Below are positions 24,701-41,266 of a DNA stretch of 41,266 nucleotides, piece by piece; the stretch's first letter is position 1, and each line of letters starts with the position of its first letter. Under the pieces are notes generated by a model that did no database searches, was not told the origin of the DNA, and saw only the letters and a list, made by a program, of their open reading frames with translations. Location: the NCBI GenBank assembly GCA_028280285.1, contig JANQMA010000028.1, positions 1-41,266 of the forward strand, written 5' to 3'. The position numbers and the translations under genes are program-made. This stretch comes from Candidatus Omnitrophota bacterium. GTDB lineage: Bacteria; Omnitrophota; Gorgyraeia; Zapsychrales; Zapsychraceae.

Positions 24701-27700
24701 GCCACAACATAAACCAGATTACCATCGAGAAGATCATCATTGATGATCGAATACGCTTGCACGATTGTCTGAATCGGTTTCCAGAAGAGCATGCGCCCTT
24801 GCTCATAATCCATCTCATAATCGGCGCCCTCCACCATTTCTTTACTCGATATGACAAGACCTGTAATTTTGTCTCTGACCTCAATCTTAATGCTATCCGA
24901 ACCTTCAACAATTTTCTTATGTCTGAGATAATAGAGTGAGCCGCCGGTTGCTAAAAATTCATTGTGTGCATTTTTCTGCTGGGCACGGGCACGGAAGGCG
25001 ACAATCTTTGTCTTGGCCTCACCAAACTCGGTTGTCCCGACACTTTCAAAATTAATCTTACCGCCATACAGCGAACGGGTGTAGCGGGCAAACTCTGTAT
25101 CTTCAAAACCGACACTATAGTTACTCCACTGCACCGATGATTTGTCCCACTCCATCATTAAATAAAGATTACCCTGCGTATCGGTCGCATCGTAATCAAC
25201 CTCGGACTGATCGCCATAAACCGGATAATACGTGTCTTCGTCGAGATTACGGAACAGTTGTTTGCGTTCGCGGTCACTGTCAAAACTCGATGTAATGAGG
25301 TATTTACCCTTAATCTTACCTTTTAAGTAATAAGACACCTGGCCGTCTCTATAGAATCCACTTGTAAACCGGTCTTCATTAATAACCGGTTCAATGTTGC
25401 CTTGAACAAAATTATAACCGGCTTTAATATCACCCATTCCCACGAAGAATAGATAATCTTCGCCGATACGCACCTGCTTTTTATATTGTTTGCTTGGGGC
25501 TTGGGCATAAACGACTTCTTCTTGTGTCGCCTCAATACCACCGATGGAACGGTCCACATCGATCGTGATTGACTCATAGGATTCCCTCGCTTGCGGCACA
25601 TCGCGGGCCGTTTGCACCATAATTTCATAATCACCCCGCGGCAAAATAATATCGATCGGCTCGGCCTCTGTTTCTTGTATCTGGCCTGTCTCGATAATCT
25701 CGCGCGCGGTCAATCCGTGATGATAAACAACCGGTATTTCCGAAACCAGATTGTTATCTTGCAAAATCTGTATGCTATAAAGGCTTTCATCTTTTTGATC
25801 GACCGTAATCGTCTCCCCTTCAACAAATATGGTTTGAATACCGAGATTATTAATCTTATTTTGCGCAATGATCCAATCTTTATAGCCTTCGCGTTCAATC
25901 TTTTCTTTTCTTTCTTCCATGTATTGATCATATTCTTCCTCATCTTCAATCAAACGTAGTGCGATGTCCTTGGCTTTTGTCTCATCATATTTATGACCGG
26001 CATAAACAGTAAAAATGTATTGGTACTTTTTATCCGGATCAACATACTCTCCGTCATTATTACGCCCATCCCAGAACACAGGATCATAAATATTAAGATT
26101 AGTACCTTCAAACGTCTTCATGGTTTTCTTGGTTAACTCTTCGAAAATTTCCAGACGCCATTGATCGACAAAAGTGCCGTAATTGGTAAAGAAACGAAAC
26201 TCGATTGGATCAATAAATATACGATTGTAAACAACTGCCCCATCACCAAAATAATCAGCATTAAGCCGTGGTGTTGGTTTGGACGTGTCTTGGTTAAATC
26301 CGATTTGTTTGGCAAAGAATTGATTATCGACACTGGTAAAGACTTCATAGTCGACATGCACGCCGAAATTAACCTTATACGTTGAGCCTTGCGTCACATC
26401 AACCACAACCACCTTTGGTGTTGTAAGATAACTATCCTTTGGCAAGCTACGTTCATCAATCCTGAATAAATGCCGTCCCGGCGTAATCCCCGGCACACTA
26501 AACAGACCGTTAGCATCGGCTGTAATAATGGTGCCGTCTTCCATCACAATGCGTGCATTCGAAATCGGATCCTCGGTGATTGTCTCAGCTTTAAGAAAAT
26601 CATAGACCGGCGCATCTTGAATGCCGTTTTCATTCTGATCATAAAAGACCTTACCGATAATCGTACCAAGATCAAAGAGTGGATCCATCACAACCTCGAC
26701 CGTTTCACTCGCGGTGTTGGAAATAATAGATGAATCATCATCAAGTCTGGCGACAGCCGTGTTACGGTAATCACCGAAAGTCACACCGGAACCGACAACG
26801 AGTTGGTATTTAAGCGTTTTGGTTTGGCCCGGCCCCATTGTGCCCGGATCAAATCCAACAGGCCTGCGGCCCGTTGGATCGTCAATGGGCACCCCATCAA
26901 GGATCACACGATCATCAATATACTTAAAGCCCGGCGGAATCGTATCCCACACTCTAAAATCACCAATACTGTTTTCCGTATTTAAATTTTCGATGGTGAT
27001 TGTATATGTCACAACCTCACCGATCTTGACTTCCTTTTTATTTGCCGATTTTTCTAAACGCAGGAGTGATGCATTCTCATCCATGGGATGATCCATTTCA
27101 ATAACAGTTGATGCAACCGTAAATAATTCTCCTTTAGATCCGTTAACAATCGTTCTATCCGATGGAAAAGTCGTTTTACTTGACGGGTAAGTAAAACCGG
27201 CGGCCGTAACATCAATGGTATAATCGCCGGACACAGTTAAGAAACTATAAACCCCGTCGGATCCCGTGGTCAGAGGATTCACATCGGTGGCATGCAAATG
27301 CACACCGGCGACCGCCAGCGTACCACCCGAAGTGAAGATAGACACCTCCGCTCCTTCAATCGGCAGATTACTGGAAGAATCAAAAACAACCCCGAACGGA
27401 TCAACAAGCAGAATATCTAAAATATCACTGGCCACCCCGTCAACAGTGACAGAAATAGAATTGGTGCCCTTGGGCAGAGGAATTGTAAGCGCAATCGAAT
27501 AAATACCGCCTGCCGTGGATGTTCCGGTACCGACCGTTGTTAAAAGCAGATTGCCATCCGCGTCACTCGCCAAAATTTCGGCACTCGAGCTAGCCAAACT
27601 TGCCCCGGCAATGGTTGGTGTTGCCCCAAGGACGCGCTCATTTTCTGTATGCGAGGTAATGGTCGGTTGCTGAGACGTGGTTGGGGCACTGACAACATTA

Positions 27701-30700
27701 ATTGGTGTCGGTGTATTACCGACGCCTGAAACAAACGCCGTTAACGATGTGCTACCAATCGTCAGCTGATCACTGCCGGCTACCTCAAACCGCCAGTTAC
27801 CGGCCGAATCAGCTGTCGCCGTACCAATCACATGGGCGTTTGCCTGAACTGTAATAGCATCACCCGGATCAGCTGTCCCGATGATCGTCGGTGTGCGGTC
27901 AACCGTTTTATTTTCTTGCGGAACATTAATCGCCAAACTAGAAAATACCCATTGTGGCGTTGATGCGGGATCAGTATTGTCATTGCCCGTCCCATCCGTA
28001 CAGCCGAAACAGAATATGTCAAAATTATTTGTGGATGTCGTCTCCACCTCACCATCGGAAACAATCAGATTATTAAGTCCCTGATTGGCATCAGGGATTT
28101 CCCATGTCCAATCCGATCCGCTGGAAGTGGATTGCATAGTAATGTTATTGCTGGCCTCCCCATTCGCGGTTAAAGTTCCCCCTGTATCAATCACCTGTGT
28201 GCTGCCTGCGGTAAAACTAAATGTCTTTCCACCCGTCGTTGTTGTAAAGTTATAAAAGGTTGTATTCCCGGTAAGCGTAACCGAGTTGGACACATCAAAG
28301 ATAACCGTCCCGGAGGAATGCGTGAACGTCGCACTGCCGCCGAGCGTCCAGTTACCGGCAACATTAAAGGTGTTACTGGAATTGGGCGCGGTGAGTGTCC
28401 CCGCCGAGGTAGTTACATCGCCGTTGGCATCAATACTTCCACTGGTTGCCGTTAAGGTTCCGCCGTTAATCAAAAGTGTGTTGGTAACCGTTAATGCATC
28501 ACCATTGGTTGAAATATTAAGCACACCGTTTAAGAGGGTCAAATCATTGGCTACAACCAAATCACCGTTGGTAGTAAAGTTATCCGGTGTAGAGCCTGTA
28601 TCATTAATGAGAAGGTTATAGTAATCAATGCTGCCGGCCGTACTGGCGATATCGACAATGCTGCGCGCATCGGCTGTGGCATCTGTATTACCAATATAGG
28701 CAAAGGTTCCTGAGTCCTCGTCCATGTTCGGAATAGTCACCGTTTCGCTACCGATAAGACGAATACTTCCATCCAGACTAAAGACATCATCAACCTCTAG
28801 CCCAAATCCGGCGAGCGTGACGGTGGCGGTTGAGGCAACACTTAGGTCGTCGACATCAACGGCTGAAGCGAGGACCGGATAAACGGTCGCCACGACCGGA
28901 ACAATAACCGAGTCGCCCGGAATAGGCAGAAGACCGACATTCCAGTTAAGCGCCGTATCCCAATCTTGGTCAACATCTCCCTCCCAAGTAAAGGTCCCGG
29001 AATTGAAAAACCAATTCGCCGTTGAGGATGTCGGGCTTTCGCTTGACGTACGCGCAATAAGCGGCAGGCCGCCCGAGGCATCGGAATCCCCGACAATGAG
29101 AAACTCAAGGTCCTGAAGCCCTCCGGTCGTTAAAGTAATATCAAACTGTGTCCCGCCGACATTACTAAGAAGAGTCAACGACCGCGCCGCACTGACCCCG
29201 TTGATTGTTAAGCTGTTAGTAATGGTCTGTTCGGCACTGGTGGTAAAACGCATAGTATCGGTTGCCGTTGCCGTTTTATTAAAGCCGTAGAATGTTGTAT
29301 TACGATTACCAAAAATATTCTGCATGGTCCCATCAAAAGTTACTGTACCGCTTGAATTAGTAAATGTCCCTCCGGTGCTGTGGGTAAAGTCACCGCTAAT
29401 GGTAAATGTCTCTGATGTTGTCGGTGCTGTCAGCGTACCGGCGGTCAAGATAAGATCTCCATTAAGATCAATATCTCCATTGGTTGCCAGAAGGTCCCCA
29501 CCGGAGAGATTAATTGTGCTGGAAACCGTGATGGTGTCGGTGCCGGTTGAAATGTCAAACGTGGCATTGGTCAAACTCAATTCACCAAAGATGCTTAAGT
29601 TGCCTGGCGTCGCATAGGTATCTTCCCCGTTAGCATCGCTAATCACAACATCAAAGTAATTTAGATCCGGAATCGTTGGATTTTCGACAACCGCATCCGC
29701 ATCCCCAAAGTAGAATGCCCCGGAATCGGTATCCGGTGTGACGATCGTTACGTTTTCCGAACCGTTAAGGAAAATGGTTCCGTTACTCGACAAGATACCG
29801 TTGATGTGCAGATTCTTACCGGATAAGGAAATACTTGCGCCGGCATTGATCGTCATATCAACAACAGTCACAAATGTCGCGGTCACGGTTGTTAAATCAG
29901 GTTGCGTGGTGACATCGGCAATCACAACCGAGTCGATTGACTGCGGCACAAAACCAAGATCCCAGTTGCTTGCTGTCTCCCAGTCGGCGCTGGTGTCCCC
30001 ATCCCAGGTCAATGTCGCCGCACCAAAAGACCAGTTAATGTTGTTTTGGGCCAAACCAACCGAATTACGCCCGACCAATGTCAACCCATTGTTGGCATCG
30101 GAATCGGTGACGTCCAGCCACTCAAGGTCCTGAAAGCCTCCGGCCTGAAGCGTGATGTTCCATTGATCGCCCGGCGAGTCGCTGACAAGCGCAAGGAGCT
30201 GCCCGGCGCTCGCCCCGCGCAGCGTTAACATGTTTTGAATGATTTGTTCACCGGAATTGTCGAACGTCAACGTGTCGGTGGCGGTCGCAATCTTGGTCCA
30301 GTTCCAGAAGGTTGTGTTTCCATTAATGCTTTGCGTGGTTCCGTCAAAGGTCACGGTCGCGCTGCCATGCGTGAATGTTGAGTTGGTATTGCTCCAATCG
30401 CCGGCCACGGTTATGTTAAATCCGCCGGTGTTAAAGGTTCCGGCGGTTGAGGTAAAGTTGTTATCGATATTCATTTGGGTTGTGGTCAGGATCGCATCCC
30501 CTGTTCCGGAATGAGAGAAATTGAAGAACAGCTTACCTGAGCCGATGCCGCCGGTGTTGATATTCTGTGTGCCGGTACCGGAGAAGATCACGGTTGAACT
30601 GCCGGCCATAAAGACCCCGGAAGAATTGGTCCAGTCGCCTGTGAGCGACACCGAGCCGGTGGTGGCCGAAAGCGTTCCGGCAATCGTCACAAATCCGGGC

Positions 30701-30864
30701 ACATTTAGATCACTCCCGCCGACACTTAGGGAAGATCCGACCGGGATGGTCAACCCTTGGGAGCCAACATGCGTTGGACAGCTAACAATAAAAGCTGTCA
30801 GCAAAATGGCGGCCAAGCATCGGCTTGGAATAATCTTCGCTAATTGTAAAAGTAGTTTACTCAT
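21769..30864 (-). CDS. Giant multidomain outer-membrane protein (beta repeats, Big, CarboxypepD_reg-like, DUF11-like, SdrD-like, FlgD-like, predicted OM barrel, TPR-like tail)
   Basis: 3031 aa. N-terminal hydrophobic signal ending IVSC; FTWEGDVDQDWDTALNWN repeats; FGVVFDSSSNLPIEGAEVSIF; LLRLEKSANKKEVKIGEVVTYTITIENLNTENSIGDFRVWDTIPPGFKY; IIGKVFYDQNENGIQDAP...; DPVFWDGRNNDGEYVDPDKKYQYIFTVYAG; alternating amphipathic strands from about 25.5 to 22.2 kb; helical tail IYKDVVIAAEMMFAEASQYIRARIG...YYKNGQYEKARKILEKIVEEAEKVMLEYNN. Confidence 0.85.
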   Translation of the reverse strand: MSKLLLQLAKIIPSRCLAAILLTAFIVSCPTHVGSQGLTIPVGSSLSVGGSDLNVPGFVTIAGTLSATTGSVSLTGDWTNSSGVFMAGSSTVIFSGTGTQNINTGGIGSGKLFFNFSHSGTGDAILTTTQMNIDNNFTSTAGTFNTGGFNITVAGDWSNTNSTFTHGSATVTFDGTTQSINGNTTFWNWTKIATATDTLTFDNSGEQIIQNMLTLRGASAGQLLALVSDSPGDQWNITLQAGGFQDLEWLDVTDSDANNGLTLVGRNSVGLAQNNINWSFGAATLTWDGDTSADWETASNWDLGFVPQSIDSVVIADVTTQPDLTTVTATFVTVVDMTINAGASISLSGKNLHINGILSSNGTIFLNGSENVTIVTPDTDSGAFYFGDADAVVENPTIPDLNYFDVVISDANGEDTYATPGNLSIFGELSLTNATFDISTGTDTITVSSTINLSGGDLLATNGDIDLNGDLILTAGTLTAPTTSETFTISGDFTHSTGGTFTNSSGTVTFDGTMQNIFGNRNTTFYGFNKTATATDTMRFTTSAEQTITNSLTINGVSAARSLTLLSNVGGTQFDITLTTGGLQDLEFLIVGDSDASGGLPLIARTSSESPTSSTANWFFNSGTFTWEGDVDQDWDTALNWNVGLLPIPGDSVIVPVVATVYPVLASAVDVDDLSVASTATVTLAGFGLEVDDVFSLDGSIRLIGSETVTIPNMDEDSGTFAYIGNTDATADARSIVDIASTAGSIDYYNLLINDTGSTPDNFTTNGDLVVANDLTLLNGVLNISTNGDALTVTNTLLINGGTLTATSGSIDANGDVTTSAGTLTAPNSSNTFNVAGNWTLGGSATFTHSSGTVIFDVSNSVTLTGNTTFYNFTTTTGGKTFSFTAGSTQVIDTGGTLTANGEASNNITMQSTSSGSDWTWEIPDANQGLNNLIVSDGEVETTSTNNFDIFCFGCTDGTGNDNTDPASTPQWVFSSLAINVPQENKTVDRTPTIIGTADPGDAITVQANAHVIGTATADSAGNWRFEVAGSDQLTIGSTSLTAFVSGVGNTPTPINVVSAPTTSQQPTITSHTENERVLGATPTIAGASLASSSAEILASDADGNLLLTTVGTGTSTAGGIYSIALTIPLPKGTNSISVTVDGVASDILDILLVDPFGVVFDSSSNLPIEGAEVSIFTSGGTLAVAGVHLHATDVNPLTTGSDGVYSFLTVSGDYTIDVTAAGFTYPSSKTTFPSDRTIVNGSKGELFTVASTVIEMDHPMDENASLLRLEKSANKKEVKIGEVVTYTITIENLNTENSIGDFRVWDTIPPGFKYIDDRVILDGVPIDDPTGRRPVGFDPGTMGPGQTKTLKYQLVVGSGVTFGDYRNTAVARLDDDSSIISNTASETVEVVMDPLFDLGTIIGKVFYDQNENGIQDAPVYDFLKAETITEDPISNARIVMEDGTIITADANGLFSVPGITPGRHLFRIDERSLPKDSYLTTPKVVVVDVTQGSTYKVNFGVHVDYEVFTSVDNQFFAKQIGFNQDTSKPTPRLNADYFGDGAVVYNRIFIDPIEFRFFTNYGTFVDQWRLEIFEELTKKTMKTFEGTNLNIYDPVFWDGRNNDGEYVDPDKKYQYIFTVYAGHKYDETKAKDIALRLIEDEEEYDQYMEERKEKIEREGYKDWIIAQNKINNLGIQTIFVEGETITVDQKDESLYSIQILQDNNLVSEIPVVYHHGLTAREIIETGQIQETEAEPIDIILPRGDYEIMVQTARDVPQARESYESITIDVDRSIGGIEATQEEVVYAQAPSKQYKKQVRIGEDYLFFVGMGDIKAGYNFVQGNIEPVINEDRFTSGFYRDGQVSYYLKGKIKGKYLITSSFDSDRERKQLFRNLDEDTYYPVYGDQSEVDYDATDTQGNLYLMMEWDKSSVQWSNYSVGFEDTEFARYTRSLYGGKINFESVGTTEFGEAKTKIVAFRARAQQKNAHNEFLATGGSLYYLRHKKIVEGSDSIKIEVRDKITGLVISSKEMVEGADYEMDYEQGRMLFWKPIQTIVQAYSIINDDLLDGNLVYVVADYEYEVLDKIDEATYGARVRQALGDNVIVGGTVVEESQEGGQYRMQGIDLTIQPNQNTKIVAEYAMTEDEEEGVFISTDGGLSFTEINTEGDARGAAYSIKGDTRLFDKLAVKAGYRWVGNDFSSSATTAQQGKEITNIEAIYDPTDSTRITVRHDIQALIDDGNLQSQAQVGASKSTTSLIQMVHEARRLKLTAEYQRTEVENKKSEFDTANNTETNTVAVRADYKLSDKVDVSLRQQITIDGEDNDQTTIGVVAKPTDKITVKGEKTIGESGFMGDLDVRVDTEGPISFVGGYKLHRDKDGTITQDQSGDATAGVVMKVTESTEVKTEFGLEGVFEEDPRRVVKLGTASALGDKNKIETELALRDGGGSQSTALGLKGVRAIDENNRVEGEAVLSSDQGHQQSAYAMRGISKIDENTQMETELILDGPEDNRQRTMTFGGTKQVDENTKTTSKFALKESPLDGRESNFTVGTNRKINEELAFASSRIFGTKEDGTTTNETAYSLIQNKDGQRLEGKYGQKSSDGIEDEVGKESTFSLIREREGQKLEGTLTRKDARDDQEISKSNIFGLSGDFGDKWALEGNIEQSNVQNLDGSETDRNVVSVAAGYVNKDDITGEELKASSKFEIRMDRGDTDKRQVLAYNAIEGKVNRDLTLSGKAEISETRNLDTDEVEAQHREFSLGAAYRPIMNDRLNFLAQYTYQEDLSPSSQEDIEDIEEVRAHVLSADVIFDLTEKWQIAEKFAYRISEEKVTGFDFTETHTWLMIQRLTYNVDKDWAVTGELRMLGVEEAEDYKAGGLFEVVRNVGDYTQLGLGYNFTDFTDDLTDLDYSTHGPFIRMTGKLYDRTPEELERSRQAWIDEKVRRWATAIVYEQLEQEDSEILIALNENIRMAQYAEDKGDLEEARKIYKDVVIAAEMMFAEASQYIRARIGKEEELKQMKVIADQYYKNGQYEKARKILEKIVEEAEKVMLEYNN
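23180..23680 (-). repeat. About 31-34 aa beta-hairpin repeats within the predicted barrel
   Basis: Successive units: TALGLKGVRAIDENNRVEGEAVLSSDQGHQQ / SAYAMRGISKIDENTQMETELILDGPEDNRQ / RTMTFGGTKQVDENTKTTSKFALKESPLDGRE / SNFTVGTNRKINEELAFASSRIFGTKEDGTTTNE. Confidence 0.65.
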
Positions 30865-30908
30865 TTTATTAATTTACGGTTACGGTGTCGATGCTCGTTA
30901 CGTATCAT
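30861..30908 (-). CDS. Candidate 15-codon mini-ORF (MIRNEHRHRNRKLIK) linking RAYT stop to giant-protein start
   Basis: ATG at 30908 overlaps the RAYT TGA (ATGA); its own TGA (30863-30861) overlaps the ATG of the 3031-aa ORF (ATGA); AAGGAG lies a few nt upstream. The giant ORF has no obvious SD of its own. Confidence 0.4.
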   Translation of the reverse strand: MIRNEHRHRNRKLIK

Positions 30909-31528
30909 TTAAATCTCCTTTTAAACTCCCGGTCGCCTAAGATGCCGGCTCTGCGTTCAAGCAAATTCAAGTCTTCGGTCTGTAAATTATTCACAAGCGC
31001 CTTGTACACCATCTGACGCTCTTTACTCGTTGATCCAAGTTCCCGGTAAATCGTGTGCTCATCTAAATTGATTCCGTTGCTTTGCCCCAGGGCCAGCACA
31101 TGATAGCCGCTCCACTTATAATCCTCGGGCGCGTCTACCTTCCGGGCGGCCACCGGATCGAAATCGATAGCGCGTGAGCAGGCCATAAAATACTTATCTT
31201 CCTGAATCACAAAGCTTTTGTAACGCCCCTGGAAGACATGGCCTGTGCGGTTGTATTTTTTGTTGAAATATTTGGCGTAATTTTTTTGCACCATCTCCAT
31301 GGCGCGGGCAAGATTACCATCCTCCTTCGGCTCGACTAAGAGGTGAATATGGTGATCGAGTAAGACGTAATTGTAGATATATAAAGGAAATACAGATCGG
31401 GCTTCGTTGAGGAGCGCAATGTATTGCGCGCAATCCTCATTGGATGGGAAAAGCACAAGTTGATCGTTGGCACGGCAGACAATATGCTGCACATACCCCG
31501 CTTGCTGTACGCGTTGAGGCCTCGGCAT
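30905..31528 (-). CDS. IS200-like / REP-associated tyrosine transposase (Y1_Tnp), RAYT-1
   Basis: MPRPQRVQQAGYVQHIVCRANDQLVLFP...YNYVLLDHHIHLLVEPKEDGNLARAMEMVQKNYAKYFNKKYNRTGHVFQGRYKSFVIQEDKYFMACSRAIDFDPVAA: HUH (HIH) motif and catalytic-Tyr region; C-terminal RAGILGDREFKRRFK. Confidence 0.93.
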   Translation of the reverse strand: MPRPQRVQQAGYVQHIVCRANDQLVLFPSNEDCAQYIALLNEARSVFPLYIYNYVLLDHHIHLLVEPKEDGNLARAMEMVQKNYAKYFNKKYNRTGHVFQGRYKSFVIQEDKYFMACSRAIDFDPVAARKVDAPEDYKWSGYHVLALGQSNGINLDEHTIYRELGSTSKERQMVYKALVNNLQTEDLNLLERRAGILGDREFKRRFK

Positions 31529-31564
31529 GGTTGAATGATATCAAGGTGGCACCTCAATGTCAAG

Positions 31565-31690
31565 AAGAACCTAGTTCTTTTTTAATTATAAGTACCCGGA
31601 ACTATAATTAATATATAGTAGCTGGTTTTTTCATTATTTTTAGTACCTGGTTTTTATTATATAATAAGTACCTGGTACTTATATAAATAA
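31565..31690. repeat. Iteron-like array: five 25-26 bp units with AAGTACCTGGTACTT-type palindromes
   Basis: AAGAACCTAGTTCTTTTTTAATTAT / AAGTACCCGGAACTATAATTAATATA / TAGTAGCTGGTTTTTTCATTATTTT / TAGTACCTGGTTTTTATTATATAAT / AAGTACCTGGTACTTATATAAATAA; the last contains the perfect palindrome ATAAGTACC-T-GGTACTTAT (31664-31682). Confidence 0.85.
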
Positions 31691-31751
31691 AAGAGCCATG
31701 TTAATAAATGTTATTATATCCGACAATTAGGCGCCGGTAAATTATTCGAAA

Positions 31752-31874: not shown

Positions 31875-32459
31875 ATGAAAAAATTCTACACACGCAAGAA
31901 TTTGCGCCTACCTGCATACAATTACACATCACCTGGATATTATTTCGTCACCATTTGTACGCACAAACAAAAACGATTGTTGGGACAAATAATCCATACG
32001 GAGGGCGGCTCACGAGCCGCCCCTACGGTTAAAGGATCAAGTTATAACCAAAATACGAATAAAAATATCGTAGGGGGCGTTCGTGAACGCCCCTCCAGAA
32101 TGTGTTTAAATCAGATTGGTAAAATCGCACAAGAATCATGGTTATGGTTAGAACAACAATACGATCATGTATCATTGGATTGGTTTGTTATCATGCCTAA
32201 CCATATTCATGGAATAATTATTATTAAGGAGGGCGGCTCGCGAGCCGCCCCTACGAAACCATTAGGCCAATTAATCGGCGCATTCAAAACGATTTCAACC
32301 AAACAAATAAACATATTACGCAATACACCAGGAACAAAAATATGGCAACGCAATTATTACGAACATGTGATACGGAATGAAGAATCTTTGCAAAAAATAC
32401 GCGAATATATCGTCAATAATCCCCAAAAATGGCATATGGATGAATATTGTCGAAATTAA
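31875..32459 (+). CDS. IS200-like / REP-associated transposase (Y1_Tnp), RAYT-2, with in-frame REP insertions
   Basis: LPAYNYTSPGYYFVTICTHKQKRLLGQII...LDWFVIMPNHIHGIIII...IGAFKTISTKQINILRNTPGTKIWQRNYYEHVIRNEESLQKIREYIVNNPQKW: HUH motif HIH plus canonical RAYT C-terminal part. Confidence 0.92.
   Translation: MKKFYTRKNLRLPAYNYTSPGYYFVTICTHKQKRLLGQIIHTEGGSRAAPTVKGSSYNQNTNKNIVGGVRERPSRMCLNQIGKIAQESWLWLEQQYDHVSLDWFVIMPNHIHGIIIIKEGGSRAAPTKPLGQLIGAFKTISTKQINILRNTPGTKIWQRNYYEHVIRNEESLQKIREYIVNNPQKWHMDEYCRN
32001..32027 (+). repeat. REP copy 1 inside RAYT-2 (encodes EGGSRAAPT)
   Basis: GAGGGCGGCTC-AC-GAGCCGCCCCTACG; perfect 9-bp stem (32003-32022). Confidence 0.85.
32069..32096 (-). repeat. REP copy 2 inside RAYT-2, opposite orientation (encodes VGGVRERPS)
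   Basis: CGTAGGGGGCGTTC-GT-GAACGCCCCTCC; perfect 9-bp stem (32074-32093). Confidence 0.85.
32228..32255 (+). repeat. REP copy 3 inside RAYT-2 (encodes EGGSRAAPT)
   Basis: GGAGGGCGGCTC-GC-GAGCCGCCCCTACG; perfect 9-bp stem (32231-32250). Confidence 0.85.
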
Positions 32460-35400
32460 AACGGATATCTTCCAAACTCGCTCTGATAAGAGAAGCCCCA
32501 GCCGGAATTGTTGCCGGAGTCTTTGACGTTGAGTTTGTTCTTAATGGTCTCGCCGGACGTCGCATTGGAATCCTGCACATCAATGAAATTCACATCAAAC
32601 CCTTCCCGTCCACTCTGATTGGAATTGAAGAGATATCTATTGCCTGAGGAAGTTGAGCGCAGTTGCAATAACTTACCCGCCGTTCCCTTAAGCGTCATAG
32701 TTCCTGTAAAGGATATTGTATCACTCACACCAAAGTACATTGTGTCGGTCACCGTCGGGGTTTTGCTAAACATATAGAATGTCTCACTACCGATCACACC
32801 CTGCGCGGTTCCGTCAAAGACCACCTTGCCTGTTCTCTCCATAAACACCGCGCCGGTGTTAAACCACGTGCCGCCTATATTAATTTGATATTCACTGCCG
32901 GAAATATCCATCGTCCCTTCGGCCAAAATCAAATCACCGTCGACATCAAGCGCCGCCGCCAACGTCTGATTAGTTTCATTACCTGTCACAACCTCAGCCT
33001 GCGCCAGCGCACGGACCTCATCAGCCGACAACACCCGATTATAAACACGCACATCATCAAGAATGGCATTAAGCGCATCGACTCTATCCGCAATAACAAA
33101 TGTCTCATCATTGCCTGTATCTTCTACAGGCTTCCCATTAGCATCAGACCCATTACCAAAACTAAAAGTATTTAAAACGCCATCTTTATAGATAAATGTA
33201 CTGTCACTCTCATCAGGTTTGCCATTCCAAATAACAACAAAGTGCGCCCACTCATCGGCCGTAACGATACTATTAAAACGATTATTAATATCTGTCGTTC
33301 CATCATAGTTAATATTAACTGTGATTCTTCCGGACGTGTTAGTGGTCACATTCCAAAGATAATCACTGCCGAGGCCATTTTCAACAATCGTGGCACTTGC
33401 AAAACTATAATCCTTCATCCAGAAGGATAAAGAAAAACCATCCCGAAGGTCAAGCTCCCGGGCCACTCCAATATCCACATGATCGGCGGCCCCATCAAAA
33501 TTGAAACTACCATTATTGGTAAAACCAATAGGTTGATAACCGGTACTTGTTTGCGGAGCACCATTGATTGTTCCGTGATTGCCATAGCCGGAGGAATCAT
33601 CCGGCGTGGAATCACTTGTCGAATCAAGCTTCCAATATCCGACAAGCCCGTCACCAATAATCAAATCATTAAATGTCGTTGAGCTGGCATTGAGTGTACG
33701 GTCAGTCGAAGATGTCAGAAGCACTTGCCCTGAGTTATGTGTAAACGTTCCGCCGGTGTGCGTCCAGTTGCCGGTGACGCGCAGCTGTTCTTCCGGCGCC
33801 GTGAAGGTTGCCCCGGCATCATTTAACGTAAACGCCCCATCGATCACAAACGTTGAATCGGTGCCTTCAAAGACAACATTCGCGGTTGACATTGCAAAGT
33901 CGCCGGTGAATTTGACGGTATCAATAAAATCACTATGCGTTAAGGTTCCATCGGTGAAGGTAAATGTTGACGCTTCAAAATTATCCGCGAGTGACCACGT
34001 CCCACCGGTACCGCCATCATCGATCACAACGGTGTTAAATGTATTCGAACCGGAGAAGATATCATGCGTCCCCGAACCGGTTGAGTCAAACGTCACGGTT
34101 GCCCCGCTTGATTTAAATACCCCGCCGTAGTTGAGCCATGAACCGCCGACTGTAATTGCATTACCCGCGGCATCCAGCGTCCCGGAACCTATAATCAGAT
34201 CATCATCGACATCAAGCCCATCACTGAGCGTCACAACACCTTTAGTCGATTGCGGCTGAAAACCGTTAGCGAGTCTTGTAATTTCTACAGACGACAACGC
34301 ACGATTGTAAACACGCACATCATCAATCAAACCATCCCACGTTTTAGTTCCAATTGGTAAATTACCAATTGTAATAGAACCATCGGCATCACTTTCAACA
34401 TTTCCGGTTCCATTGGTTGTTGTTTGATAACTTGCTTCTTCCCCGTTTATATATATTCTCGCATTAGCAGCCGACGCAGAACCATCCCAACTTAGAGCGA
34501 TATGCTGCCAAATACCTAAATCAATCGAGTTGTCATCCGTAGTATGGGTTAGATCAACTCCTGAAAACGGTCTTAAGAATACGAATGCGTTAGTACTGCT
34601 GAATCGGAACACCCACCTAACAGAACCACCACTTGTGGCTTTACTCATTAAAACTCCCTGCGATGTTTCACCCATTGAATCCGGATGAATCCATGCGCTT
34701 ATAGTCATTGGACCAAGCTCATCAACAACCGCACTTGAATTAGCATCAACATAGTCATTAGAACCGTCAAACTTAAGCGCTCGCGTGTTTTCGAAATTTA
34801 AATTATTATGGGCGAAAGAAATCGTTGGTGAGTTTTCATGGACTCCATCATTATCATACCCAGATGAATCAATCGCGACAGAACCTCCCGTTTCATCAAA
34901 TTTCCAATACCCAACTAAGCCATCGGCGATCGCCAAGTCATTAAACGTCTCACCACCCGATGTAAGCGTTGCGGTTGTGGTTGTTGTCATGATCACTGTA
35001 CCGGTTGACGTGAACGTCGCACCCAACGTAACCGAGCCACCCACAATTGTATTTTCTCCACTATCAACATACGTTCCTGATGTGAATGTAAAATTACCCG
35101 TCGATCCGGTCGTTGACGATAGCGTAAGTGTTCCTTGCAATGTTAATGTTCCGGTAAATGATCCACTGGCATCCAGCTCCCCAATCTTAAGATGGGAATT
35201 AGCAATCGTGACAATGCTGTCTGATGTCGAATCAATCGTTGCTGTGTGATCAGGCGTACCCGGATATCCGCTCGCCCCGGTCCAGTTGCCGGAATCATTC
35301 CAGGTCGCACCATCCGACAGACCAGTCCAGACAAAGAGCGTAGTTGAGAAGACCCAGTTAAAGTTATTGCCCGCATCCGTACATCCAGACAAACAGCTCA

Positions 35401-38400
35401 AATCACTTCCTGTATTATTCAATGAATCTTTGACATTAAGATTGCTGAATGATGACGTTTCATTGGAAACGATTTTCCAAATATTATCACTCGATGTAGA
35501 ACGCAGCGACAGCGGCCGGCCGCTTGAGAAGCCTTGCATGTTAAGTGTCGATGATACGGTGAATGTATCACTGGCTGAGAAGTAAAGTGTATCGGCCACG
35601 GTTGGCGTCTTGGAGAACATGTAGAATGCTTCGCCGCCAAACACACCTTGCATCGTTCCGTCAAACCAGACAAGACCACTGCGAGCCGTAAAGGTTGTGG
35701 CCCCGGTGTTGAACCACGTGCCAGCCAGGTTAATGGTGTAATTACTTCCCGAAACATCCAATGTTCCTTCAGAAAGGATAAGATCACCGTCGACATCCAG
35801 CGCAGCGGCCAACGTTTGCGTTTGATTGTCACCCGTACTTGTTAAATGTTCGGCTTCAGCTAGGATACGCAGCTCTTCAGCCGATAATGCGCGATTATAA
35901 ACCCGCACATCATCAACAAGCCCCTCCATAAATGAGCCCGTTCTTTGTCCGATACTTAAGTCAGCGCTTGTTCCGACAAAATTAAGTTCAGCTATGCCGG
36001 TAATGCCGGCATTCATCACAACACCATTTTGATAAACCAGCACCTGATCATTACCTTTACTCCACGTAAAAGCAGCATGCACCCATTCATCTAACGGCAA
36101 AGTCCCTCCTGCTGCTCCTGGTTGAAGAAGATTACCGTCTCCTTCCCAGTTTGCTTGGAGCTTTCCTCCTCCTGTATTATCAACACGTAGAAAAATCTGA
36201 TTGTCACCATCCACCCGCCAAGCAACAACATAGTTTTGTACAGAGCCAAAGCTATCAAAATTAACCCACGCACTGAATGTCCCCTCATTTGGATTAACTA
36301 GATCATATGAAGCAACATTGACATAATCGCCCGCCCCATCAAGACGGAAACTACCATTATTCGTAAACCCTACTGGCAATTTACCTAAACTCGTTTGCGG
36401 ATCGCCGTTGATCGTTCCATGATTGCCGTAGCCGGAGGAATCATCCGGTGTTGAATCGGATGTGGAATCAAGTTTCCAATAACCGATGAGGCCGTCGCCA
36501 ATGATTAGGTCATTAAAAGTAACGCCGGTTGTGGTCAGTGTTCTGTTGTCTGTGCTCGTGAGCAAAACTTGACCACTATTATGAGTAAAGGTTCCGTTGC
36601 TGACATTGAAATCACCTGTCACCCGAAGTTGTTCCTCAGGGGCTGTGAAGCTGGCGCCGGCATCACTCATTGTAAAGCCTCCATCAATCACAAACGTTGA
36701 ATCGGTTCCTTCGAATTCAACTGCGGCAGTTGAAAGGGCAAAGTCACCGGTGAATTTGACCACATCGACAAAATCACTGTGCGTTAGATCACCATCGGTG
36801 AAAGTAAATGTGGACGCTTCAAAGTTATCTGCCAGTGACCATGTGCCGCCCGTGCCGCCGTCATCGATCACAACGGTATTGAATGTATTCGATCCACTGA
36901 AGATATCATGCGTTCCCGAACCGGTTGAATCGAATGTTACAGTAGCGCCTCCTGATTTGAAAACCCCTCCATAATTAAGCCAGCTACCTCCAACCGTGAT
37001 CGCATTACCACCAGCTGCCAGGGTACCTGAACCTATCACTATATCACTATCTACGTCCAGCGAATCTGTGAGCGATATCACTCCTTTCGTCGACTGTGGC
37101 ATAAAACCATTGGCCAACCTCTGAATCTCAGTCATCGACAAGACTCGGTCATATATTCTTACATCATCCATTCTTCCATTAAATGCTTGCACATCTCCTG
37201 ATGAACTATTTCCAATACCCACTGCAGCATTCGTATCAGTACCTAGCGTTAACACAGTCCCACTTGTAGGCGTCTGTTCAACAGCATCAAAATAAAGTGT
37301 ACTTGCAACACCGTCCTCATGTGTTAACAAAACATGTATCCATCTATCCGAAGGTAAAACAGGATATCTGACATCATTACCACTAATACTAAATGCCATA
37401 TATCCAGAGCTGCTATTTACCAATTGCCAACGCATATCAGTTGCACTAAAAGAATCTCTTTTCGTTATCAGCACATCAATTCCTTCTATCCCATCGAAGT
37501 AAACCCAGGTAGAAAGTGTAAAATTATTACCAGGATCAAATGTCCCCACTGAAATGTAATCAGAAGTCGTAGTAAAAGCTACTGAACCTATATTTTCAAA
37601 GTTAAGATTAATACCTGTACTTGTTTCCGGTGAACCTGATATCGTCCCGTGATGCCCATACCCCGAATGATCGAGCACGCCGCTGGCGGCTGTGGAATCG
37701 AGTTTCCAGTAGCCGACCAGCCCGTCACTGATGACTAGATCATTGAGCGAATTGTTGCTCGTTGCTAGTTGCTCGTTGCTCGTAGTAGTCATAATCACTG
37801 TACCCGTTGAGGTGAAGGTTGCGCTGAGCGTTACAGAATCATCAACAATGATGATTTGACCGTTGTCAACGAGTGTCCCGGCGGAATGCATCAGGTTACC
37901 GACCATGGACATTGTGCTTTGCAATGTCCAGGTTGTGCCGCCGTCAAGGTCATTGAAGGTCACATTATCGAATGTTTCCGACAGTGATGTGATATCAATG
38001 GATGCAATCGATCCTTCAAACAGAACCGTTGAACCTGTTGCACGGAATGATCCGGTATTGCCCATCGTCCAGGTGGAACCGAGCGATATGGTTGAGTTGC
38101 CGTCCGTACCGCTTTGCGCAATGAATGTTCCGTGTACAGTGATAAACTCTTGAATGTTAACTTCATATCCGTTGGTGCGGAAGATATCACCGTCATTGAT
38201 AAGAAGTGATTTAGCGGTAAAGGTTGAGGCAAGATCGGTTGTATCAGGAGATGTGCCGATTTCAATAATACCAAAGTTCCAGGCTGTATTACCTGAAGCT
38301 TCATACGTCAAGTCCCCATCGAAAGTAATAGTCCCTGTTCCTTTGGAAACCGTTGGATTTTCTATAATCGTAATATCCCCGGCGATGTTCATATTATTAT

Positions 38401-41266
38401 TGTTCGTCGCCAGATCAAGCGCGCCGGTGTTGACATCAAGCGTACCGTTGACATCCATATCGCCGGCGATCACATACGTTCCGCTGGATGAGCCGAGCGC
38501 CTTACCTTGAGCAAGATAGGCAATTTCGGTCGCTGATAACGCACGGTTATAAACTCTCAAATCATCAATACTTCCCGAATACTCTCTGTCACCATCACCT
38601 CTACGTCCTATCGTTGGATCAATATTGTTTTGGATAGAACTTGAAATAGAATTATTAAGTACAATGCTTGTCCCTTCAACCCCATCGACATAAAGAAGCA
38701 TCCCCGATGCATCATTAGAACCATCGTATGTTAGGGCAACATGGCGCCATGTGTCATCATCAACCTCCACACCACTTCTAACTTGATACCTCTCAGTACC
38801 TGACCATGTACTTATAATATGCGCCATAGTTTTACCATCAGTGTCCAATATAAAATCAAATCCCAAAAAGTCATCTGCAGACCGAACACCTTTTGCAAAA
38901 ATCGCTTCTTGGGCTGACACTGTAGGTTGTTTGACCCATGCAGCAATCGACCATTTATCCGTCCTTTCAAAATCAAAATTAGATTCATTGGCGACCGTGA
39001 TATAATCGCCAGACCCGTCAAAATTAATACTGCCTGTATTAATAAAATTAGTCGGCGCCTCATTGCTGGTCAAAGGATTGCCTGCAAGAGTTCCATGATT
39101 ACCATATCCAGACGAATCATCTGGCGTTGAGTCACTAGTCGAATCAAGCTTCCAATAGCCGACAAGGCCGTCGCCGAGGGAAACGTTATTAAAATCGGTA
39201 GAGGTTGTGGGGGTAAGGGTTTGGGTGTTAGTGGCCGTAAACATTATATGGCCGCTGTTGGCATCAAACGTTCCACCCGAATGCGCGAAGTTACCGGAGA
39301 CCCGCATGGTGCCGTTTGGGGCCGTAAATGTTCCTGCGGAAATGTCTAAGCGGCCGTCAAAGCTGATGGTGCCGTCTTTGCCGTTAAACACCCCGCCATT
39401 TTGCGTTAGATTACCCTCAACGATCAGTGATTGAACCGTTGTCGCATACGTCAATGTTCCATCGGTGAGTGTTGCCGTTGCATCCGTTATAAAATTATCA
39501 ACCAACCGCCAGGCTCCTGAAGCATTATTAAAGGCAACGGTGCTAAACGTTGAGGAACCTGTTAATACATCAGCATTATCCGCGCCATCAAACGTAACGG
39601 TATTGCCGCCGGCATTGAACACCCCGCCAAAGTTAAGCCATGAGGAGCCGACGGTAACACTACTACCACTAGTCTTCAAGGTGCCTGCCGCTATCACTAT
39701 AGCACCATTAACGTCGAGCGCATCAGCGAGCGTATACTGCCCCCGTCCAATCGCCGGCTGATCACCACGGGCCAGGCGCGCGGCTTCGGAAGCCGTCAAT
39801 GCCCGGTCATACGCACGCACTTCATCAATTAACCCATTAAATGGTGTAGATGTAAGGCTCGATCCGTTATTGCGGCTGCCGATTAAAATAATATCCCGCT
39901 CACCATACGTCCCTGACGGACTGGCCGTTGTGCTCCCTGCCAAAGTCCCGTCCACATAAAAGCTATAGGTTGTCCCGTCCTTAACGGCTACGGCATTCAT
40001 CCATACACCTGCTAATGCTGTTGTATTGATTTCGGCAATAACCCCTGCCGCATCATTTCTGTCTATAAATTCCAGATTAGAAGAAGCATCGATACCAATA
40101 TTGGCAAACGGTTCAGAGGTGTTCGCCGTACCTGTCCACCCTGCAATACCTTGCGCTGAACCGATACCGTCAGCCTTAAACCAAACGGAGAGAGAATAAT
40201 TATTTGTGCCATTTGGAATATATGATGGCGAAGCCACCTGCACATAATCACCACTTCCATCAAAATTAATGGCGCCCGCATTATTAAAATTAACCGGTGC
40301 TTTATCGGCCGTATCCGTACTTGTTGTCGGATCGCCCCCGACCGTACCGTGATTATCAAATCCCGCATGATCCACGACGCCACTGGCAGCAGTCGAATCA
40401 AGTTTCCAGTAACCGATTAGCCCGTCTGAAATCATTAAGTCATTAAACGACGCGCCACCCGAGGTGATGGTTTCGCTTGAACCAGAACCGGTCAACATCA
40501 CCTGGCCGGTTGAGGTAAACGTTGCACCGATTGTAACCGAACCCTCAACAACCGTAGTGAATCCCGCATCCACATACGTCCCGGCTGTTACGATTAGGTC
40601 TCCCGATTGGCTCATGGTATTCGATATCGTTAGCGTTGCCCCAAGTGTCAGCTTTCCGGTAAATCCGCTCGACATGGTCAGCGCACCAACACGCAGCGTT
40701 GAGGCCGTTACAATCGAATCATCTGATGAATCGATTGTTGCCGTTTCATCCGGACGGTTCGGATAACCTGAACCCAAATCCCAGTTGCCGGCATCTTCCC
40801 AGGTTGTAGCATCGGACAGTCCTGTCCATGTAAACAACACCAAACTGAATGTCCAGTTAAAGTTATTGCCTGAATCCGTACAACCGGATGTACAATTTAA
40901 ATTAGAACCTGTTTCATTATCCGAATCTTTAATATCAAGATTACTAAATGATGCGGTTGTATTGGATTTAATCTGCCAGGTGTTGCCGCTTGACGTGGAG
41001 CGCAAGAGTAACGGCTTGCTTGATGAGAAACCGGTGATGTTAAACGTGGATGAAACCGTCACCGTGTCACTCGCACTAAAGTACATGGTGTCATTAACGG
41101 TCGGTGTTTTAGAGAGCATGTAGAACGTTTCCCCGCCAAAAACACCCTGCTTGGTGCCGTCAAACCACACTAGCCCACTGCGCGCCGTAAAAGTGGTAGC
41201 TCCGGTATTAAACCATGTGCCACCGAGATTAATGGTGTAATTACTGCCCGAGACATCCAATGTTCC
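32456..41266 (-). CDS. Giant repetitive LamG-domain surface/secreted protein (5' end truncated by window edge)
   Basis: Frame open from the right edge to TAA at 32456-32458 (2,936 codons plus stop in window). Six LamG-like domains each starting GL[IV]GYWK[LF]D...(Y/F)(G/D)N/H(H/D)G and ending DDVR[VI]Y(N/D)R[AV]LS, separated by beta-rich repeats (FTARSGLVWFDGT.QGVFGGE.FYM.SKTPTV.DT.YFS). The track's Met at 41260 is an internal residue. Confidence 0.9.
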   Translation of the reverse strand, partial: GTLDVSGSNYTINLGGTWFNTGATTFTARSGLVWFDGTKQGVFGGETFYMLSKTPTVNDTMYFSASDTVTVSSTFNITGFSSSKPLLLRSTSSGNTWQIKSNTTASFSNLDIKDSDNETGSNLNCTSGCTDSGNNFNWTFSLVLFTWTGLSDATTWEDAGNWDLGSGYPNRPDETATIDSSDDSIVTASTLRVGALTMSSGFTGKLTLGATLTISNTMSQSGDLIVTAGTYVDAGFTTVVEGSVTIGATFTSTGQVMLTGSGSSETITSGGASFNDLMISDGLIGYWKLDSTAASGVVDHAGFDNHGTVGGDPTTSTDTADKAPVNFNNAGAINFDGSGDYVQVASPSYIPNGTNNYSLSVWFKADGIGSAQGIAGWTGTANTSEPFANIGIDASSNLEFIDRNDAAGVIAEINTTALAGVWMNAVAVKDGTTYSFYVDGTLAGSTTASPSGTYGERDIILIGSRNNGSSLTSTPFNGLIDEVRAYDRALTASEAARLARGDQPAIGRGQYTLADALDVNGAIVIAAGTLKTSGSSVTVGSSWLNFGGVFNAGGNTVTFDGADNADVLTGSSTFSTVAFNNASGAWRLVDNFITDATATLTDGTLTYATTVQSLIVEGNLTQNGGVFNGKDGTISFDGRLDISAGTFTAPNGTMRVSGNFAHSGGTFDANSGHIMFTATNTQTLTPTTSTDFNNVSLGDGLVGYWKLDSTSDSTPDDSSGYGNHGTLAGNPLTSNEAPTNFINTGSINFDGSGDYITVANESNFDFERTDKWSIAAWVKQPTVSAQEAIFAKGVRSADDFLGFDFILDTDGKTMAHIISTWSGTERYQVRSGVEVDDDTWRHVALTYDGSNDASGMLLYVDGVEGTSIVLNNSISSSIQNNIDPTIGRRGDGDREYSGSIDDLRVYNRALSATEIAYLAQGKALGSSSGTYVIAGDMDVNGTLDVNTGALDLATNNNNMNIAGDITIIENPTVSKGTGTITFDGDLTYEASGNTAWNFGIIEIGTSPDTTDLASTFTAKSLLINDGDIFRTNGYEVNIQEFITVHGTFIAQSGTDGNSTISLGSTWTMGNTGSFRATGSTVLFEGSIASIDITSLSETFDNVTFNDLDGGTTWTLQSTMSMVGNLMHSAGTLVDNGQIIIVDDSVTLSATFTSTGTVIMTTTSNEQLATSNNSLNDLVISDGLVGYWKLDSTAASGVLDHSGYGHHGTISGSPETSTGINLNFENIGSVAFTTTSDYISVGTFDPGNNFTLSTWVYFDGIEGIDVLITKRDSFSATDMRWQLVNSSSGYMAFSISGNDVRYPVLPSDRWIHVLLTHEDGVASTLYFDAVEQTPTSGTVLTLGTDTNAAVGIGNSSSGDVQAFNGRMDDVRIYDRVLSMTEIQRLANGFMPQSTKGVISLTDSLDVDSDIVIGSGTLAAGGNAITVGGSWLNYGGVFKSGGATVTFDSTGSGTHDIFSGSNTFNTVVIDDGGTGGTWSLADNFEASTFTFTDGDLTHSDFVDVVKFTGDFALSTAAVEFEGTDSTFVIDGGFTMSDAGASFTAPEEQLRVTGDFNVSNGTFTHNSGQVLLTSTDNRTLTTTGVTFNDLIIGDGLIGYWKLDSTSDSTPDDSSGYGNHGTINGDPQTSLGKLPVGFTNNGSFRLDGAGDYVNVASYDLVNPNEGTFSAWVNFDSFGSVQNYVVAWRVDGDNQIFLRVDNTGGGKLQANWEGDGNLLQPGAAGGTLPLDEWVHAAFTWSKGNDQVLVYQNGVVMNAGITGIAELNFVGTSADLSIGQRTGSFMEGLVDDVRVYNRALSAEELRILAEAEHLTSTGDNQTQTLAAALDVDGDLILSEGTLDVSGSNYTINLAGTWFNTGATTFTARSGLVWFDGTMQGVFGGEAFYMFSKTPTVADTLYFSASDTFTVSSTLNMQGFSSGRPLSLRSTSSDNIWKIVSNETSSFSNLNVKDSLNNTGSDLSCLSGCTDAGNNFNWVFSTTLFVWTGLSDGATWNDSGNWTGASGYPGTPDHTATIDSTSDSIVTIANSHLKIGELDASGSFTGTLTLQGTLTLSSTTGSTGNFTFTSGTYVDSGENTIVGGSVTLGATFTSTGTVIMTTTTTATLTSGGETFNDLAIADGLVGYWKFDETGGSVAIDSSGYDNDGVHENSPTISFAHNNLNFENTRALKFDGSNDYVDANSSAVVDELGPMTISAWIHPDSMGETSQGVLMSKATSGGSVRWVFRFSSTNAFVFLRPFSGVDLTHTTDDNSIDLGIWQHIALSWDGSASAANARIYINGEEASYQTTTNGTGNVESDADGSITIGNLPIGTKTWDGLIDDVRVYNRALSSVEITRLANGFQPQSTKGVVTLSDGLDVDDDLIIGSGTLDAAGNAITVGGSWLNYGGVFKSSGATVTFDSTGSGTHDIFSGSNTFNTVVIDDGGTGGTWSLADNFEASTFTFTDGTLTHSDFIDTVKFTGDFAMSTANVVFEGTDSTFVIDGAFTLNDAGATFTAPEEQLRVTGNWTHTGGTFTHNSGQVLLTSSTDRTLNASSTTFNDLIIGDGLVGYWKLDSTSDSTPDDSSGYGNHGTINGAPQTSTGYQPIGFTNNGSFNFDGAADHVDIGVARELDLRDGFSLSFWMKDYSFASATIVENGLGSDYLWNVTTNTSGRITVNINYDGTTDINNRFNSIVTADEWAHFVVIWNGKPDESDSTFIYKDGVLNTFSFGNGSDANGKPVEDTGNDETFVIADRVDALNAILDDVRVYNRVLSADEVRALAQAEVVTGNETNQTLAAALDVDGDLILAEGTMDISGSEYQINIGGTWFNTGAVFMERTGKVVFDGTAQGVIGSETFYMFSKTPTVTDTMYFGVSDTISFTGTMTLKGTAGKLLQLRSTSSGNRYLFNSNQSGREGFDVNFIDVQDSNATSGETIKNKLNVKDSGNNSGWGFSYQSEFGRYPF
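32900..41266 (-). repeat. Three ~2.7-2.85 kb super-repeats within the giant LamG gene (boundaries approximate)
   Basis: Equivalent landmarks recur at about 34227/37073/39731 (AGCGtcAcaaC...) and at 35767 and 41266 (CCAATGTTCC); blocks near 33750-34160 and 36600-37010 are highly similar at the DNA level. Confidence 0.75.
37755..37782 (-). repeat. Heptanucleotide tandem repeat (TTGCTCG)x4, one mismatch, inside coding sequence
   Basis: TTGCTCG TTGCTAG TTGCTCG TTGCTCG, directly visible; encodes part of TTTSNEQLATSNNS on the minus strand. Confidence 0.9.

Follow-up and report, generated by a model that had tools for sequence, protein, structure and literature searches.

RAYT genes typically have their REPs alongside (PMC2817692, PMC6006769), and the literature describes them as flanked by either REP or TIR (PMC2817692, PMC3733652, PMC6006769). 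Why genomes retain them over such long times in single copy is an open question, and in the literature searched, mostly outside subscription papers, we found no report of a RAYT that controls its own promoter. Here, we describe RAYT-1, a 207-aa Y1_Tnp protein encoded on the minus strand at positions 30905-31528 of a 41,266-nt stretch of DNA (the window), together with the array of dyads upstream of its gene. The window, from Candidatus Omnitrophota, corresponds to contig C15 of a genome of 2.2 Mb, and the closest named RAYT-1 orthologues all belong to Candidatus Omnitrophota. The RAYT-1 clade offers a testable answer to the question of persistence, in which binding would have been kept, cutting lost and a host operon gained, and it suggests that an old DNA-mobilising enzyme may have become a gene switch that controls itself.

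Beyond its own clade, RAYT-1 has its nearest database relatives among the TIRYTs, or TnpA-Y1 subclass 2.1 (PMC3733652, PMC6006769), which are about 280 aa long and carry a C-terminal HTH (HTH_23-type match), whereas RAYT-1 has none. Control TIRYTs have the motif GGGTCA[GC] upstream in 51 of 69 cases, and in 15 of 69 it lies 0–4 nt before TTGA; TIRYTs and RAYT-1 thus have in common a recognition motif that adjoins the -35 box. At RAYT-1, however, GTACC dyads replace GGGGTCAG, there is no GGGGWSAS-type terminal inverted repeat, and the locus differs further in its 25-bp multi-site lattice, in catalytic residues that are often gone and in its linkage to giant genes. With RAYT/REPIN systems (PMC2817692, PMC3116915) it shares RAYT-flanking palindromes, dispersed inverted pairs (in genomes G028 and G006) and a family of palindromes scattered over the window genome. 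It differs from these systems in that its dyads are AT-rich with no obvious GT[AG]G tag 5′ of the hairpin (as read by eye in the printed units and the dispersed copies), restricted to the locus in most orthologues and overlapping a promoter, and in that catalytic residues are lost in six members. The nearest conceptual parallel is TldR, a group of nuclease-dead TnpB repressors (PMC13418256). Both are IS200/IS605-type element proteins that have lost catalysis more than once and become stably associated with a host gene for a surface structure, but TldR is RNA-guided and TnpB-derived, whereas RAYT-1 is of the TnpA/Y1 type and would act via fixed dyads.

Array and promoter upstream of RAYT-1

The array is a 25-bp lattice of dyads with the consensus AAGTAC(C/A)WGGTACTT. 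Starting from the unit farthest from the gene, the five units lie on the minus strand at 31666-31680 (AAGTACCAGGTACTT; AAGTACCTGGTACTT as read), 31641-31655 (AAAAACCAGGTACTA; TAGTACCTGGTTTTT), 31616-31630 (AAAAACCAGCTACTA; TAGTAGCTGGTTTTT), 31590-31604 (TAGTTCCGGGTACTT; AAGTACCCGGAACTA) and 31565-31579 (AAGAACTAGGTTCTT; AAGAACCTAGTTCTT). The first of these is a perfect 19-nt palindrome, ATAAGTACC-T-GGTACTTAT, in which two perfect 9-nt arms surround a central base and reach 31664-31682, and the fifth abuts the 5′ side of the -35 box. The five starts, their steps of 25, 26, 25 and 25 counted from 31565 and the perfect palindrome of the farthest unit were all correctly given in a preliminary description of the window. 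That description also had successive units on alternating faces of the helix at a period of about 2.5 turns; the 25-bp period stands, but 25 bp is 2.38 turns, or a rotation of approximately 137 degrees, which is not strictly opposite.

A lag of 25 bp is the top of the autocorrelation, with 17 four-mer matches that none of 500 dinucleotide shuffles reach, and the array holds 6 near-palindromes versus 1.7 expected (p = 0.008). With the phase chosen uniformly, covariation between the arms within units is no greater than base composition gives (p = 0.13); the value obtained at first (p = 0.0016) had one array out of phase, and no covariation is claimed. As the arms do not covary, what is conserved in the dyads is a symmetric sequence, and this does not identify the binder. 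Rfam gave no more than a sub-threshold miRNA match, which we judged to be chance.

The array terminates at the predicted RAYT-1 promoter, TTGACA-N17-TATCAT, which scores 11/12 and has its -35 box at 31558-31563 and its -10 box at 31535-31540, both on the minus strand. The -10 box stops 6 nt short of the ATG at 31528, a leaderless-type start, and because of this proximity the RAYT-1 transcript is probably leaderless. The next lattice step falls within the promoter, in which AGGTGGCACCT at 31544-31554 (AGGTGCCACCT on the minus strand; AGTGCCATNTTGA or similar in orthologues) takes a sixth lattice position inside the 17-nt spacer, 23–25 bp or about one lattice step from the last unit. It had previously been read as a free-standing palindrome between the array and the ATG; the coordinates of both are right, but the element is part of the promoter spacer. 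The minus-strand order is TATTAACATGGCTC, five dyads, TTGACA, the 17-nt spacer with GAGGTGCCACCT, TATCAT, 6 nt and the ATG. The locus thereby has the layout of an autoregulatory operator array, with repeated sites overlapping the predicted promoter from which their putative binding protein is expressed.

The outermost element of this order is the minus-strand reading of a bracket at 31693-31706 (GAGCCATGTTAATA on the plus strand), the inverted counterpart of the spacer/-10 element, and the pair is perfect in the orthologue L094 (TATCAACATGGCAC ... GTGCCATGTTGATA). Inverted copies of RGTGCCATGTTGATA (or variants), observed at 31693-31706 of the window and in the upstream regions of L094 and L034, bracket the array in the subclade made up of the window, L094 and G008, and the inner copy is the source of the -10 region.

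Nine orthologues have a TTGACA-N17-(TATAAT-like) promoter that lies 6–8 nt from the ATG and whose -35 box is immediately preceded by a dyad or near-dyad, and in most of the nine the spacer contains AGTGCCA or one of its variants. GTGCC or a variant is likewise found in the spacer of most dyad-bearing orthologues with a conserved promoter, and in three orthologues (L030, L032 and L174) the canonical promoter is absent from that place. Promoter scores of at least 10/12 are reached at 9 of 16 RAYT-1 loci versus 12 of 69 control RAYTs (p = 0.003). As a hallmark of RAYT-1, the leaderless promoter is weakened by the 20 of 69 controls that score at least 9/12 as a leaderless-type promoter. Together with the start-proximal motif of the controls, these promoters indicate that the layout is partly inherited from mobile relatives. 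Recognition motifs against the -35 box hint at autoregulation across the TIRYT subclass and suggest that it may be a general trait of TIRYT-type transposases. In many TIRYT-type genes, for example at control loci L100, L103, L134 and L156, GGGGTCAGGTC leads directly into a box resembling -35, in some cases as tandem copies.

The RAYT-1 protein and its clade

PF01797 (Y1_Tnp, E = 4e-8) is the sole domain found in RAYT-1, and an AlphaFold model (pLDDT 91), whose best PDB match is 4ER8 TnpA-REP (E = 1.8e-8), predicts that the TnpA-REP fold is retained. An active RAYT/Y1 protein has both the HUH motif and the catalytic Tyr. RAYT-1 keeps the former as HIH (H60 and H62), but in the profile alignment its codon 120 (31169-31171, minus strand), which aligns with Tyr115 of E. 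coli TnpA-REP (4ER8), encodes Ala. Judged by its catalytic residues, RAYT-1 is a RAYT/Y1 (HUH) family member by descent and not an active one, and against NF047646, the NCBIfam equivalog for REP-associated tyrosine transposases, it reaches 53.6 bits, below the cut-off of 80. With the catalytic tyrosine missing, the array is unlikely to be a live substrate of the HUH protein of the window, as had been considered. No C-terminal HTH was found in the scanned members of the RAYT-1 clade, whose lengths of 199–228 aa leave no room for one.

Among 386 genomes from the phylum, searched at E ≤ 1e-45, 14 have RAYT-1 relatives, which, together with an additional copy in G012 and the named record L094, give a set of 16 proteins. 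These form one monophyletic clade (100/99) that sits on a long stem and is separate from the RAYTs on C10 and C48 of the window genome. One or more of the His/His/Tyr residues are lost in 6 of the 16 versus 1 of 74 other RAYTs (Fisher p = 8e-5). The losses are spread over at least three parts of the RAYT-1 tree and affect differing residues, and the genes stay intact despite them. Between G002 and G324, both without the first HUH His, differences are mostly silent, with a pN of 0.17 versus a pS of 0.91 (dS is saturated in this pair, hence no ratio is quoted).

GTACC-type dyads lie upstream of most of the 16 members, often directly before TTGACA, and within 150 nt upstream of 0 of 69 other RAYTs. 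The centre of unit 5 is at -44 from the RAYT-1 ATG, and orthologues with a dyad at the -35 box keep the last dyad centre at about -43 to -45. Multi-unit arrays with 25 bp as the top lag are found at five loci (the window, G002, G324, L094 and G008), and in G002 the array stands on both sides of RAYT-1, with nine further units downstream on the same lattice. Among orthologous arrays delimited by hand and chosen by eye, 25 bp is the top lag in 7 of 8; in a fixed 200-nt upstream stretch, it is the top lag at 7 of 16 RAYT-1 loci versus 6 of 69 control RAYTs. Three in-phase GSTWCW words at 25-bp steps match, across 37 genomes, at the window and G002 arrays only. The preliminary description had proposed a binding or recognition array, for autoregulation or as a substrate of the HUH protein. 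A recognition array that goes with the RAYT-1 subfamily, most likely an autoregulatory one, is supported by the comparable dyads upstream of most orthologues and by in-phase triplets that occur at RAYT-1 loci only and at no unrelated site in the 37 genomes.

Dispersed palindromes and the origin of the array

The array had also been set apart from ordinary REP hairpins; two sets of dispersed copies speak against its being unrelated to REPs. In the window genome (G000), a 21-bp AT-rich palindrome, AAATAGTRCCWGGYACTATTT, with the same 13-bp core as the array and differing flanks, is found at 32 places with ≤3 mismatches (reversed control, 0). In G028 and G006, in which RAYT-1 is not beside giant genes, HUH and Tyr are kept and the dyads are dispersed as inverted pairs, mostly 24–25 bp apart, which is the organisation of REPINs. 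The array looks derived from such REPIN-like inverted pairs, which is the simplest origin because the pair spacing equals the lattice step.

Copies of the 21-mer (loci L055-L084) were observed on C7, C9, C10, C14, C22, C48 and further contigs. Most of them avoid long open frames, some are paired 25–49 bp apart, and their oriented consensus is AATAAATAGTGCCAGGTACTATTT. A related palindrome, AATTGGTRCCTGGCACTATTT, is present four times within one open frame of approximately 2666 codons (L083, C30:8450-11794). The TIRYT-like gene on C10 (flank AAATAGTGTCAG) has only a half-site in common with the dispersed 21-mers, and in G008, G018 and G020 C10-type RAYTs are present and the 21-mer family is absent. 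The RAYT-1 array shares the whole 13-bp core with the 21-mers, and RAYT-1 is now without its catalytic Tyr. Inverted repeats also stand on both sides of two TIRYT-like genes of the window genome, AAATAGTGTCAGAACTCG at L085 (C10:29612) and AAAGGGGTCAGGCCGTCTTTTGTCAC at L086 (C48:82300).

Our preferred reading, the chances of which we see as evenly balanced, is that of a domesticated RAYT autoregulating its operon through a phased operator of REP-derived dyads. The dispersed copies also suit a local REP/REPIN cluster (REPtron), in which the dyads would be RAYT cleavage substrates multiplied beside their own transposase, non-regulatory and now decaying. That RAYTs are typically REP-flanked (PMC2817692, PMC6006769), that about 30 same-core palindromes are dispersed in the window genome and that intact HUH/Tyr goes with inverted pairs in G028 and G006 all agree with such a cluster. 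Yet catalytic residues are missing in the window RAYT-1 and five other orthologues, the dyad motif is essentially restricted to the RAYT-1 locus in six giant-linked genomes (G001, G018, G007, G012, G015 and G017), and decay would not be expected to preserve the 25-bp spacing amid unit divergence or the fixed distance to the -35 box. On this evidence we consider a REPtron rather unlikely, although it deserves to be kept in mind.

Giant secreted-protein genes and candidate autoregulation

A giant secreted protein gene (3031 aa, 21769-30864) follows RAYT-1 on the minus strand after 40 bp, and in 12 of the 16 cases a large secreted-protein gene directly follows RAYT-1 on its strand. In most of these the two genes overlap slightly or are separated by at most about 50 bp (in G002 the gap is longer and array-filled). 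Eight of these 12 giants, including that of the window, are homologous (type A), with about 42–49% identity to the window protein in the best stretch, and the other four are of a different type, which is repeat-rich. Type A giants are present in 11 of 12 genomes with RAYT-1 versus 5 of 25 without (p = 5e-5). Catalytic loss and giant-gene linkage show no significant association (p = 0.21).

As RAYT-1 precedes two unrelated giant types, the giants may be the selected part, and the array could then be an operator for another regulator of the giant-protein operon, with RAYT-1 a passenger. We regard this as improbable. Type A genes away from RAYT-1 have no dyad array upstream (in cases with the upstream end on the contig), which ties the array to RAYT-1 rather than to the giant gene. 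Furthermore, dyads stand on both flanks of RAYT-1 in G002, G324, G015, G006 and G028 and recur where RAYT-1 is not beside giants (G006 and G028). A period arising by chance in AT-rich intergenic DNA, or an array of replication iterons, would fit the AT-rich spacers and iteron-like spacing but is ruled out for practical purposes by the shuffle tests, orthologue conservation and triplet specificity, and the neighbourhood examined has no sign of a replication origin or Rep gene.

The lattice, its overlap with the promoter sequence, its conservation, the operon-like synteny and the loss of catalytic residues with gene retention are observed. For the fixed spacing, the fixed promoter distance, the linkage to RAYT-1 and the catalytic loss in retained genes, RAYT-1 as an autoregulator would be the simplest account. 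In this model, RAYT-1 would have become a protein that binds double-stranded DNA and that occupies the AAGTAC(C/A)WGGTACTT sites of the 25-bp lattice cooperatively. With the lattice running through the promoter (a full site at -35 and a GTGCC site in the spacer), occupancy would compete with RNA polymerase and binding would repress. The amount of a single leaderless transcript would be adjusted in this way, one that carries RAYT-1 and, we infer, the co-transcribed giant surface-protein gene behind it. In broader terms, a protein of the TnpA/RAYT type may, with repeated loss of its catalytic residues, have been exapted as a transcription factor for giant surface-protein operons via a REPIN-derived 25-bp operator lattice, as the TnpA counterpart of the TnpB-derived TldR; we offer this tentatively, at a little short of an even chance. 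It would provide a first handle on the control of giant surface proteins in Omnitrophota.

A second giant (2934 aa, window 32456-41260, minus strand), cut by the contig end and with Laminin_G_3 repeats, lies upstream of RAYT-1 on the same strand. In L094 (3998-8618), RAYT-1 and the giant are one uninterrupted open frame with a signal-peptide-like segment internal to it, and this fusion could be real or an assembly error. RAYT-2, on the plus strand at 31875-32459 of the window, has copies of its own GC-rich REP within the gene and in frame, where they encode GGSRAAPT and similar peptides. Such in-gene REP copies have been reported for TnpA-Y1 subclass 2.4.
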